From Candidatus Nitrosopumilus sp. (lineage in GTDB: Archaea; Thermoproteota; Nitrososphaeria; Nitrososphaerales; Nitrosopumilaceae): 36,691 bases of DNA. Numbering within the stretch: the first letter of the stretch is position 1; each line of letters opens with the position of its first letter. This document shows, piece after piece, positions 27,122 to 31,466 of the stretch. The notes beneath the pieces are model-generated. The model had not been told where the DNA came from. It saw nothing but the letters and a program-made list of their open reading frames with translations, and searched no databases. Position numbers and translations under genes: made by a program. The stretch covers positions 1 through 36,691 of the forward strand of contig JACERO010000076.1 in NCBI GenBank assembly GCA_013911135.1, in the 5' to 3' direction.

Positions 27122-27778
27122 TTACACCTTAACATAATGCAAAACAAGGTGATTTTTGAGCCTCTTGATTAATTTGAGATGTAATTTAGGTGAACTTGAA
27201 ATTTTTGCAAAACCCTGTCCTTGAACAAAAGAAATAGCATCATTACCTCCAATTAAAAATGGAGATATTGTAATAATCAATTCATCAAAAAGATTATGTT
27301 TAATAAATTCCCAATTAATGGTCCCGCCACCTTCAACAAGAATTGTTTTAATTTTTTTATCTGAAAGTTTTTTCAGTAATAATTTTATATTTACAGAATT
27401 TTCTCCAGCAATAATTACCTCTACAGGAAATTTATGTAGTTTATCAAGATTTGATTGAGAAATTCTTTTTGATACAGCTATGATCGTTGGAATCTCATTG
27501 CTTGTTTGTATGATTTTTGATTTTTTAGGTATAGTACCTTTAGAATCCAAAATTATTCTAATTGGATTTTTTCCTCTAGTATATCGTACAGTTAACAAAG
27601 GATTATCTCGTAAAACTGTATTTTTTCCAACAAGAATTGCATCTACTTTAAATCTTAGTTTATGAAGTCTTACACTATCTTGTTTTGAAGATAGTTTTGA
27701 ATCACCTGTACGAGTTGCAATTTTTCCATCAACTGATGTTGCTGCACTTAAAATTACATAAGGTTTAGATTTTTCCAT
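27122..27778 (-). CDS. arfC: Diaminohydroxyphosphoribosylaminopyrimidine-type reductase (ArfC/RIB7)
   Basis: A 218-residue dihydrofolate-reductase-fold enzyme that reduces the ribosyl chain of the pyrimidine intermediate to ribityl in riboflavin synthesis. Signatures are PYVILSAATSVDGKIAT, the NADPH-binding region VDAILVGKNTVLRDNPLLTVR, and ILVEGGGTINWEFI. It lacks the deaminase domain of bacterial RibD, as in archaea and fungi. ATG 27778 is preferred to the start at 27796 because it begins next to the first strand. It is the last gene of the rib operon and overlaps the amidohydrolase gene by 14 nt. Confidence 0.9.
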   Translation of the reverse strand: MEKSKPYVILSAATSVDGKIATRTGDSKLSSKQDSVRLHKLRFKVDAILVGKNTVLRDNPLLTVRYTRGKNPIRIILDSKGTIPKKSKIIQTSNEIPTIIAVSKRISQSNLDKLHKFPVEVIIAGENSVNIKLLLKKLSDKKIKTILVEGGGTINWEFIKHNLFDELIITISPFLIGGNDAISFVQGQGFAKISSSPKLHLKLIKRLKNHLVLHYVKV

Positions 27779-28955
27779 ATACGATTTTACCTCCAATCAT
27801 TACTGCTTTAATGGTAGTTTCTGATGCTCGATGAACTATTGATGCATATGGATTATGCATTGGTTCTAAATCTAATGCATGCTTGTCAAGAAAAATACAA
27901 TCAGCAATTTTTCCAGTTTCAATTACTCCAATATTTTTTTTCAAAAGTTTTCCTCCGTTTACTGTAGCCATTTTAAGAATTTCTTTAGGATCAATTCTTT
28001 TTTTATGAATTCCCATAGTTGCTTTCCAAAGAAAATCCATTTCTCTAAACATGTCTGGGGAATTTATCATCACATTATCAGTACCTAATGCTAATGTGCA
28101 TCCTGCCTTTTGCATTAATTCTATGTCTGGAATTCCCTCAGCTAGAGACGAATTAGCCCTTGGGCAGATTACAATTCCTCTAGTTTTCTTTGCTACAGCA
28201 CAAAGATCACCTTTAGAAGCATAAGTCATATGAACCAAAAAATGAGGCTTTAGAGATAAAGCTCGAACTGTTTCAGATTTTCCAGTAATTTTCTTTGATG
28301 TAGAAACACTTTGTTTAGTTTCAGAAGAATGTATGACTCTAAGTTTTGGTGTTTTTGAATAATAATTTAATGCTGATGTGCTATTCTCGTTTGCACCACT
28401 TATACCAATTCCATCGCATTTTTTGATGAGTTTTGTCAGATCTTCAGTTTTTTCTCTAGGAAAAGGTTGGTTTTTTCTGATTTCAGATGGTTTTTGATAA
28501 AATTCTACTCTACCTAGAATAATTGAGCGTAAAGGAATATCAGATAATGCTTTTTTGAGTAAAGTAACGCCATCTAATCCACCTTCTCTAAAATCAACAA
28601 ATGTGATAATTCCTTTTCGAATCATTGAATGACATGTGTTTTTCATAAAATTAGCTAGATTTTCTTGAGATGTGTTTTTTAGGATTTTGGATTTGGCTCC
28701 AAACACAGGATGAATTCTTTTATCAACAGAACTATTTAGTGTAATATCTTTACCAATGGAATCTCCTATGTGTGTATGAGCATTAATGAATCCTGGAATT
28801 AATAAAAGACCTTCACAATCTATAGATTCTTCTTTAACACTTGGCCTAATTTTTGGTTGAATTTTTTTAAATATTTTATTCTGAATTTTGATATTAGTAT
28901 TTGAAATGAAATCTAATTCTTGACCTGATAATACACTTAGATTTTTAATTAACAT
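27765..28955 (-). CDS. Amidohydrolase (ATZ/TRZ-like), candidate riboflavin-pathway deaminase
   Basis: A 396-residue amidohydrolase-superfamily enzyme. Metal and catalytic residues are visible: H60 and H62 in GFINAHTHIGD, H209 and E212 in VIHSSET, H242 in LVHMTYAS, and D293 in LALGTDN. GVIETGKIADCIFLD closes the beta sandwich. The H-x-x-E pair is typical of deaminases such as cytosine, guanine and S-adenosylhomocysteine deaminases. The gene lies inside the riboflavin operon, overlapping arfA and arfC, where the archaeal pathway needs deamination of the diamino-pyrimidine intermediate and also deformylation. It is therefore a good candidate for the deaminase; this is inference. A nucleobase deaminase of salvage is the alternative. 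Confidence 0.85.
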   Translation of the reverse strand: MLIKNLSVLSGQELDFISNTNIKIQNKIFKKIQPKIRPSVKEESIDCEGLLLIPGFINAHTHIGDSIGKDITLNSSVDKRIHPVFGAKSKILKNTSQENLANFMKNTCHSMIRKGIITFVDFREGGLDGVTLLKKALSDIPLRSIILGRVEFYQKPSEIRKNQPFPREKTEDLTKLIKKCDGIGISGANENSTSALNYYSKTPKLRVIHSSETKQSVSTSKKITGKSETVRALSLKPHFLVHMTYASKGDLCAVAKKTRGIVICPRANSSLAEGIPDIELMQKAGCTLALGTDNVMINSPDMFREMDFLWKATMGIHKKRIDPKEILKMATVNGGKLLKKNIGVIETGKIADCIFLDKHALDLEPMHNPYASIVHRASETTIKAVMIGGKIVYGKI

Positions 28956-29701
28956 GATAATTCATAAACTTCAGGTTTTTCTTTTCCTGAATCTCGAATT
29001 TCTCGTATAGTGTCAAGAGATTTTGTGGCTAGTTTTACAGCTTCTCTAGCAGTATGTGCATTACCAATTCCACAATTCAAAGAAATTTTGTCATCACTTT
29101 TAACTATGTCAATAAAATTCTGGACAGATTTTTTTGCATCATCACTTGCAATTACCATAAAATTATCACCACCCATAAAAAAGGTAAGAGAGTCTTTTTG
29201 TAGAAAAAATTTTGACATTTTTGAATATAACGCAAAAATTATGGATGAAATTTCATAAGGAGAACTAGTTTGTCCCTTTGAAGTAAGATCATCTACATCC
29301 AAATGCATAATTGAGACTTTTGAATCAGATTTACCGTTAACAAAACCAAAAATATTATGTTCCTTATTTAGTATGGTTTCATTTCTCTTTCCGTCATGAG
29401 CCTTTAAGTTTGCTTCAAATGGAGATTTTCCAAAACCAATTGAAATAGTCAAATGTACATCAAATGATTTTTCGAGTGATTTTTGGATTTGAATATGATC
29501 ATCTAGTTCAAGTCCATTTGAGACTACAAAAAATTCATCTGCTCGATTAAGAAAAACTAAACAATTTTTTTCAGAAAATAATTTCTGCACTTCTTTGTAG
29601 AGAGATGCTTGAAGCATTTGGAGTTCATGTTCTCTATCACTTCCTAATGTCAGGGTCCAAGGACCATATCCACTAATTTTCAAGATGCTAAGTTGAATCA
29701 T
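28949..29701 (-). CDS. arfA: GTP cyclohydrolase III (ArfA)
   Basis: A 250-residue archaeal enzyme that opens GTP to the formylamino-pyrimidine, the first step of archaeal riboflavin and F420 chromophore synthesis. The opening ISGYGPWTLTLGSDREHELQ, CLVFLNRADEFFVVSNGL and HLTISIGFGKSPFEA are diagnostic. The second cyclase-like half has SIMHLDVDDLTSKGQ and FFMGGDNFMVI. The two-domain arrangement resembles nucleotidyl cyclases. It overlaps ribH by 4 nt and the amidohydrolase gene by 7 nt. Confidence 0.92.
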   Translation of the reverse strand: MIQLSILKISGYGPWTLTLGSDREHELQMLQASLYKEVQKLFSEKNCLVFLNRADEFFVVSNGLELDDHIQIQKSLEKSFDVHLTISIGFGKSPFEANLKAHDGKRNETILNKEHNIFGFVNGKSDSKVSIMHLDVDDLTSKGQTSSPYEISSIIFALYSKMSKFFLQKDSLTFFMGGDNFMVIASDDAKKSVQNFIDIVKSDDKISLNCGIGNAHTAREAVKLATKSLDTIREIRDSGKEKPEVYELSC

Positions 29702-30114
29702 TTTTGGATCCTCTGTAGTTCTTTAGAGATTTTCACAACAGCCTCAACTGCACGTTCTGCAACAGGTCTTATTCTAGCATAAGCATGTCTTTCTTGCATT
29801 CCAGGACCAGATATTCCCAGAGAAACAGGTTTTTGGTATTTTATGGACAAGTCAGAAAGGGATTTGGTAGCAACATGAGAAATTACCTCATCATGCTTTG
29901 TTTGACCCTTAATTATCGCTCCTAAAGTGACTACACCATCAACATCTTTTTTCTTCAATAATGCATCTACAATAATAGGTATGTCAAAGGCTCCAGGAAC
30001 CTTACACGTATAAGTTATTTTTAATTTCATCAAGTTTGCTTTTTCTTGAGCTACAGAAAGCATCCTAGATGTCACTTTTTCATTAAATTCCGAAACCACT
30101 ATAGCAATATTCAA
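29698..30114 (-). CDS. ribH: 6,7-dimethyl-8-ribityllumazine synthase
   Basis: A 138-residue lumazine synthase that condenses the ribityl-amino pyrimidine with dihydroxybutanone phosphate. IAIVVSEFNEKVTSRML, the KVPGAFDIPI loop, VVTLGAIIKGQTKHDEVISH (with the catalytic His) and PVSLGISGPGM match the family. It assembles into pentamers or capsids in the cytosol. It starts 2 nt after the ribB stop and overlaps arfA by 4 nt. Confidence 0.95.
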   Translation of the reverse strand: MNIAIVVSEFNEKVTSRMLSVAQEKANLMKLKITYTCKVPGAFDIPIIVDALLKKKDVDGVVTLGAIIKGQTKHDEVISHVATKSLSDLSIKYQKPVSLGISGPGMQERHAYARIRPVAERAVEAVVKISKELQRIQK

Positions 30115-30116
30115 AA

Positions 30117-30782
30117 CTAATGCACCTTGGCGTATTCTAAAAGTTCTTTTCCATCAACCAATGGAATTGCATTTTGTTTTGCAAATTGTTCTGCTTTATC
30201 CACAGATAATGCATTATATGTTTCAGCATCCATCATTTCACAAATTGCAGTAACTGGAGTCAATCCTGCTATTTGAGCTAAATAAACAGACATTTCAGTG
30301 TGTCCCTGACGTGCAGCAAGCAACCCTTGAGATGCTATCAATAAAGGAACATGACCTGGAGTTTTGAAAGATGATGCAAATTTTTTCTGTTTGTTTTCAA
30401 TATTAAAGATTTTTGCCATCTCTTGAATTGTTAATGCTCTATCTTTGTCAGTTACTCCAGTGTAAGTTTGATAGTGATTTACAGACAATGAAAAAGTTGG
30501 ATGATCACCATAAGGTGCTAAACCCATAATCATCTCCTTGTTTGATATTGGAGAGTCAGAAAGAATTTCATGCATGTATCTTAATTCAAGAGATGCTGCA
30601 AAATTATGATCTAATGCAATACATAATAATCCACCAGCATGTTGACGCATTCTTGCAACATGTTCAGGTCTAATAAATTCTGCAGCTACAACCATATCAA
30701 TTTCGTTTTCTCGTCCAGCTGAATCAAACAATAAAATAAATTCTCCGCGTTTTAGAGATTCTAATGCAGGTTCTAGATACAT
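30117..30782 (-). CDS. ribB: 3,4-dihydroxy-2-butanone-4-phosphate synthase
   Basis: A 221-residue enzyme that makes the four-carbon donor for ribH from ribulose 5-phosphate. Signatures are FILLFDSAGRENEIDMVVAA, MRQHAGGLLCIAL, the substrate loop FSLSVNHYQTYTGVTDKDRA, FKTPGHVPLLIA and RQGHTEMSVYLAQIAGLTP. ATG 30782 is chosen over TTG 30788 because a TATA-like box is centred 27-28 nt upstream. First gene of the operon ribB-ribH-arfA-amidohydrolase-arfC. Confidence 0.95.
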   Translation of the reverse strand: MYLEPALESLKRGEFILLFDSAGRENEIDMVVAAEFIRPEHVARMRQHAGGLLCIALDHNFAASLELRYMHEILSDSPISNKEMIMGLAPYGDHPTFSLSVNHYQTYTGVTDKDRALTIQEMAKIFNIENKQKKFASSFKTPGHVPLLIASQGLLAARQGHTEMSVYLAQIAGLTPVTAICEMMDAETYNALSVDKAEQFAKQNAIPLVDGKELLEYAKVH

Positions 30783-30805
30783 ATACAAAAATTCTCAGAA
30801 TCTAA

Positions 30806-30860: not shown

Positions 30861-31445
30861 TTATTTTAGAATATATTTTCCAAGAATATCAGTTTCAATA
30901 TTAACTTTGTCGCCCACTTTTTTGGTTTGAAAATTTGTAACTTCAATGGTGTGAGGAATTAATGATACTGATGCAAGAGTATTTTTTATATCAACAACCG
31001 TTAAACTGATTCCATCTACAGCAATAGAGCCTTTCTTCACTACATATTTTGATAGTTTTTTGGGAACTTCAAACCAAATTTGAACTTCTTTAGATTTTTT
31101 TATAATTTTTTTAATAATTCCTACTCCATCAACATGACCTAAAACAAAATGTCCTTCTAATCTATCACCAGCTTTCAAACTTCGTTCAATGTTTACAATT
31201 CCACCAACTTTTAGATTTCCAAGATCTGTTTTTTTTGTGGTTTCTTCAATCATTTCAAAAATACAGCTTGATTTGGATAGTTTTGTTGCAGTAAGACAAA
31301 CACCATTAAGTGCAACACTTTGTCCAATTTTTAATCCCTTAGCATGTTTTCCTAGATTTACAGTCATTTGAATAGCACTTCTGTTTTTTGTATTTTTAGA
31401 AATCTTTTCTACTTTACCAATTCCTTCAATGATTCCTGTAAACAT
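30861..31445 (-). CDS. ribE: Riboflavin synthase, alpha-subunit type
   Basis: A 194-residue protein with two lumazine-binding beta-barrel repeats. It dismutates two ribityllumazines into riboflavin and the pyrimidine. MFTGIIEGIGKVEKI is the canonical start. Repeat 1 has SVALNGVCLTAT and repeat 2 has GSIAVDGISLTVVDI; LEGHFVLGHVDGVG bridges them. This is the bacterial-type enzyme rather than the RibC type of methanogens. The ATG at 31445 agrees with a TATA-like box 26 nt upstream. It is separated from ribB by 78 nt with its own promoter. Confidence 0.95.
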   Translation of the reverse strand: MFTGIIEGIGKVEKISKNTKNRSAIQMTVNLGKHAKGLKIGQSVALNGVCLTATKLSKSSCIFEMIEETTKKTDLGNLKVGGIVNIERSLKAGDRLEGHFVLGHVDGVGIIKKIIKKSKEVQIWFEVPKKLSKYVVKKGSIAVDGISLTVVDIKNTLASVSLIPHTIEVTNFQTKKVGDKVNIETDILGKYILK

Positions 31446-31466
31446 CAAAAACTAGTAGAATTCTCT

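Follow-up and report, generated by a model that had tools for sequence, protein, structure and literature searches.

A COG0402-type amidohydrolase in an archaeal riboflavin operon as the probable deaminase of 5-amino-6-ribitylaminouracil synthesis

Organization of the operon

The window, by which we mean the whole 36,691-nucleotide stretch of DNA that was analyzed, contains six close-packed genes in the operon order ribE-ribB-ribH-arfA-amidohydrolase-arfC (Table 1). The amidohydrolase gene is read on the minus strand from an ATG at 28955. The sequence-only reading had given its limits exactly and had described it as overlapping both arfA and arfC; these overlaps measure 7 nt with arfA, which ends at 28949, and 32 nt with arfC when the frame of the latter is taken from the TTG at 27796 (or 14 nt when it is taken from the internal ATG at 27778). 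The plus strand across 27765-28955 is rich in stop codons. The match of the RibD model TIGR00326 to the window arfC spans positions 134-336 only, that is, the reductase half. As a separate observation, the riboflavin synthase of this operon is of the bacterial type, and the clusters at four other loci (L134, L138, L139 and L140) seemingly contain the archaeal RibC type.

Table 1. Genes of the operon and residues of the amidohydrolase, with positions in the window
Feature	Position	Strand	Remarks
arfC, RibD_C-type reductase without deaminase domain	27122..27796	-	TIGR01508 208 bits, above cut-off
Amidohydrolase, proposed 2,5-diamino-6-ribitylamino-4(3H)-pyrimidinone 5'-phosphate deaminase	27765..28955	-	396 aa; NF005552 329 bits
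arfA, GTP cyclohydrolase III	28949..29701	-	PF05165 (GCH_III) 2.1e-48
ribH, lumazine synthase	29698..30114	-	TIGR00114 127 bits, above cut-off
ribB	30117..30788	-	TIGR00506 210 bits, above cut-off
ribE, bacterial-type riboflavin synthase, lumazine-binding domains	30861..31448	-	NF006767 226 bits, above cut-off
H60-x-H62, metal ligands	28770..28778	-	invariant, 62/62 clade members and 26/26 relatives
D65, clade-specific	28761..28763	-	62/62 clade members vs 0/26 relatives
K88, clade-specific	28692..28694	-	62/62 clade members vs 0/26 relatives
E124, clade-specific, right after barrel strand 116-122	28584..28586	-	62/62 clade members vs 1/26 relatives
H209-x-x-E212, metal ligand and general acid/base	28320..28331	-	invariant
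H242, catalytic histidine	28230..28232	-	62/62 clade members, 25/26 relatives
C264-P-R266-x-N268 motif	28152..28166	-	R266 nearly clade-specific, 59/62
D293 (metal ligand) and N294 (clade-specific)	28074..28079	-	N294: N in 62/62 clade members vs G/S in 26/26 relatives

Family assignment and predicted structure

A Pfam scan assigns the protein to Amidohydro_1 (2e-39), and its best NCBIfam match is NF005552 (329 bits against a cut-off of 294), so its membership of this fold family is not due to chance. NF005552 (PRK07213, 'chlorohydrolase') is an archaeal equivalog model that also matches proteins of M. jannaschii, H. volcanii, and M. acetivorans (E <= 1e-80); although the window protein lies above its cut-off, the name of the model is generic and states no riboflavin or F420 role. 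Only Amidohydro_1/3 matches were returned by the Pfam scan, with no match of the protein to PF00383 or a RibD deaminase domain and none to PF02633 (the creatininase / ArfB family). The RibD and Rib2 deaminases, of the PF00383 superfamily, carry out in bacteria and fungi the reaction that is proposed here for the window protein, but their fold and motif are unrelated to its own.

The deaminases of S-adenosylhomocysteine (SAH), methylthioadenosine (MTA), and 5'-deoxyadenosine (PRK06038, PRK07228, TM0936) belong to the same superfamily and share its catalytic residues. Nonetheless, an identity as an SAH/MTA deaminase is rejected on equivalog cut-offs, tree, and residues: the protein scores far under the cut-offs of the corresponding models (124 vs 617 and 103 vs 522 bits), a maximum-likelihood tree separates the riboflavin-operon clade from the SAH/MTA-type relatives with support of 100/100, and D65, K88, and N294 are missing from the relatives of this type that were fetched, as is E124 from nearly all of them.

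An AlphaFold2 model of the window protein, built on a 20-row alignment, has a mean pLDDT of 92.7 and the fold of a TIM-barrel amidohydrolase with a small beta domain, nearest to the nucleobase deaminases. Among solved structures it comes closest to adenosine/MTA deaminases and triazine hydrolases, followed by the isocytosine deaminase Vcz and guanine deaminases; query-normalized TM-scores are about 0.8 against adenosine, isocytosine, and guanine deaminases. The protein is about 20% identical in sequence to any deaminase of solved structure, and homology therefore does not reveal the substrate. Isocytosine and guanine deaminases remove the 2-amino group of a 2-amino-4-pyrimidinone ring; because the ring of the pathway substrate is a substituted isocytosine, these enzymes perform the same chemistry as that required here. 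Vcz (8IS4, 7WW2) and the guanine deaminases (6OHA, 2UZ9, 6OHB) match the window protein in fold and metal-site layout, but they are 15-19% identical to it and act on free bases that carry no ribityl phosphate.

Catalytic and clade-specific residues

Residues were compared between 62 members of the riboflavin-operon clade and 26 related COG0402-type proteins (Table 1). The HxH, HxxE, H, and D residues of the COG0402-type mononuclear metal site are all present in the window protein and invariant in the clade; H60xH62, H209xxE212, H242, and D293, which had been picked out earlier from the single sequence, are precisely these residues and recur in 62/62 aligned members. The most divergent clade member (L133, from genome G071) lacks R266. 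In the secondary-structure listing of the model, E124, R149, R266, and N294 lie close after strands 116-122, 143-148, 260-263, and 288-290, respectively, a placement that suggests that they would be on the catalytic face of the barrel. D65, K88, E124, and N294 presumably recognize the substrate, and K88 and R266 may bind its phosphate.

Conservation of the gene neighborhood

The association of the amidohydrolase gene with the riboflavin genes extends well beyond the window. Of 110 loci, 106 have arfA or arfC as an immediate same-strand neighbor of the gene, and 88 have both. The phylum search contributes 30 rib-clade loci (the window's own counted), every one of which has arfA and/or arfC adjoining, and among genome contigs with organism names arfA or arfC is found in the same locus in 76 of 80. 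Linked loci span the Nitrosopumilaceae, Nitrososphaeraceae, Nitrosotalea, Bathyarchaeota, Hecatellales, Helarchaeota, Jordarchaeum, and further Thermoproteota families; in one of the latter (f18) the order is ribB-ribC-ribH-arfA-amidohydrolase, with ribC identified by sequence likeness only. The conservation in the rib cluster of relatives that had been named as a check on the original idea thus holds across Nitrososphaerota, Bathyarchaeota, other Thermoproteota families, and Asgard archaea. Linkage is not universal: the amidohydrolase gene stands away from arfA and arfC in the Thermoproteaceae-like family f9 and some others, and no rib neighbors were seen for plasmid-borne haloarchaeal homologs. 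A euryarchaeal clade member (L119 / L146, genome G121) is split by one in-frame TGA, which may have arisen in sequencing or be a genuine change.

Three of the four loci without an adjacent arfA or arfC adjoin cofG and/or cofH, and the fourth (L050) has neither. In two loci from Bathyarchaeota (L033 and L034) cofG and cofH lie directly downstream of the amidohydrolase gene, the L033 assignments resting on similarity to the L034 genes, and in a locus from Methanomethylicia (L090) cofH lies directly upstream. Two further loci, L147 and L148, have the order amidohydrolase-arfC-cofG-cofH, where the second radical-SAM gene of L148 is judged by Pfam CofH_C. The window genome itself has a cofH gene above cut-off. 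5-Amino-6-ribitylaminouracil is an intermediate common to the riboflavin and F420 pathways (PMC3403918); since CofH and RibH both use this compound, the association of the gene with the two branches indicates a step that precedes it. Directly downstream of the amidohydrolase gene in L090 there is also a HAD-family hydrolase gene (L090:3472-4053), a possible candidate for the pathway phosphatase (EC 3.1.3.104).

Co-occurrence across genomes

One set of 121 Thermoproteota genomes was searched for NF005552, GCH III, RibD, and creatininase. A clade member is present in 48/48 genomes with arfA (residues were verified for the divergent ones) and in 3/73 genomes without it (G018, G097, and G103), in all three of which arfC is adjacent. 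In the remaining genomes without arfA the best matches that were fetched do not carry the signature; the others gave no match, apart from a few close to the E-value limit that were left unfetched. Fisher's test for co-occurrence with arfA gives p = 1.4e-30, a value that ignores the relatedness of the genomes; more telling than this p value is the agreement of presence and absence inside families f3 and f21. In f21, for example, three genomes (G081, G111, and G117) have both genes, and two (G049 and G087) have no arfA and best matches without the signature. In two of the exceptional genomes, G103 (L147) and G018 (L148), arfC and the amidohydrolase gene were found without a GCH III; another first enzyme may serve there, or the genomes may be incomplete.

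Full-length RibD (TIGR00326) scored above cut-off in 0/121 Thermoproteota genomes. Together with the 48/48 co-occurrence and an ArfC that is a reductase only, this is the pattern that had been proposed as a check, namely co-occurrence with arfA and arfC where a RibD deaminase is lacking. No PF00383 protein was found in M. jannaschii or S. acidocaldarius, though both have arfA. In the window genome a stand-alone RibD deaminase was considered and rejected, as of its two PF00383 proteins one resembles a dCMP deaminase and the other a cytidine deaminase. Two genomes of family f2 (G076 and G088) have a RibD_C-type reductase, no amidohydrolase, and separate weak matches to a RibD-like deaminase domain, possibly an alternative solution.

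Discussion

The gene had been put forward from its sequence as a candidate for the pathway deaminase, and this reading is supported by rib-cluster conservation, co-occurrence with arfA, and the absence of a RibD deaminase. With operon position, fold, and catalytic residues added to these observations, we consider it highly probable that the gene encodes the deaminase of archaeal 5-amino-6-ribitylaminouracil synthesis, a mononuclear metal-dependent amidohydrolase of the COG0402 type whose substrate and metal we infer. ArfA would open GTP, the creatininase-family ArfB would then remove formate, and ArfC would then reduce the ribosyl chain; the amidohydrolase would hydrolyze the 2-amino group of the ArfC product, 2,5-diamino-6-ribitylamino-4(3H)-pyrimidinone 5'-phosphate, yielding 5-amino-6-ribitylaminouracil 5'-phosphate and ammonia. 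The dephosphorylated product would feed RibH for riboflavin and CofH for F420. If the mechanism follows that of guanine and isocytosine deaminases, the metal would be held by H60, H62, H209, and D293, with E212, H242, and D293 activating the attacking water and protonating the leaving amine.

Within this assignment it is possible, though unlikely, that the enzyme acts at a neighboring point of the pathway, either before reduction, which is the bacterial order, or after dephosphorylation. The form of the substrate cannot be read from the sequence, which leaves room for such variants, but in archaea reduction comes before deamination, as stated in PMC3403918 and PMC13028884.

A different role within the same pathway is that of the deformylase, the amidohydrolase acting on the ArfA product in place of a creatininase-type ArfB. 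The sequence-only reading had kept this as its alternative, and the operon lends it some appeal in that the amidohydrolase gene directly follows arfA. Moreover, the only creatininase-family (PF02633) protein of the window genome is encoded on another contig (G000:C53, L150:9319-10041) and matches the ArfB model weakly (42 bits against a cut-off of 180), being closer to the MftE model (129 bits), so that the deformylase is not firmly assigned in this lineage; one genome with arfA (G119) has no listed creatininase match at all. Against this, 47/48 genomes with arfA have a separate gene for a creatininase-family (ArfB-type) protein, and this gene lies beside arfA or in the arfA cluster in family f9, G073, and G019, the cluster of G019 holding the creatininase and amidohydrolase genes together. 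Likewise, M. jannaschii has both an NF005552 protein and a characterized ArfB (in literature cited in PMC9478397), and the closest structures to the window protein are those of ring deaminases. The separate creatininase, an arfA neighbor in several genomes, leads us to reject deformylation as the main reading and to regard it as improbable.

Least probable of all is a salvage or detoxifying deaminase (of guanine, isocytosine, SAH, MTA, or 5'-deoxyadenosine) whose place in the operon is incidental, for although the fold and catalytic residues are common to those enzymes, the protein scores far under their equivalog cut-offs, belongs to a separate clade with its own invariant residues, and would on this account have its strict co-occurrence with arfA and its clustering with cofGH left unexplained.

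The pathway deaminase can also be viewed in light of earlier work. PMC8305020 counts the archaeal deaminase among the riboflavin-pathway gaps of model archaea. In Table 6 of that paper HVO_2483 and MJ0699 are entered for the gap after arfC, a prediction credited to Rodionova 2017; ArfB and the phosphatase are listed separately, which means that the gap must be the deaminase. Both organisms have NF005552 proteins, which HVO_2483 and MJ0699 may be, and the 2017 prediction seemingly concerns the same family as the window protein. The sequence-only reading had held that this enzyme is not firmly assigned in archaea. That claim stands insofar as no enzyme assay, mutant, or other biochemical proof was found in the literature searched, to which Rodionova 2017 itself did not belong; it needs amending in that a candidate had been predicted in 2017 (MJ0699/HVO_2483, as tabulated in PMC8305020). 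In the passages found of a 2026 review (PMC13028884), the later steps of the archaeal route are taken to be conserved between archaea and bacteria, and no archaeal deaminase is named. The enzyme described here is thus of a kind already predicted, with good support, rather than a new enzyme class; the support found here comes from the clustering with cofGH, the strict co-occurrence, and the clade-specific residue signature.

On a broader scale, it is likely, if somewhat less so than the assignment of the window gene itself, that this clade is an archaea-wide, non-homologous replacement of RibD/Rib2 drawn from the amidohydrolase ring deaminases, making the riboflavin/F420 precursor and marked by D65/K88/E124/N294. 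F420 needs the same deamination step as riboflavin. With its gene order, strict co-occurrence, and clade-specific residues, the assignment lends itself to direct testing and, if it is true, the NCBI model name 'chlorohydrolase' would be corrected. So too would a reading of COG0402 proteins in sponge thaumarchaeota as cytosine deaminases for creatinine breakdown (PMC7848895): the only strong member of this family in the window genome is the riboflavin-operon gene, and the sole other match there scores 18 bits.
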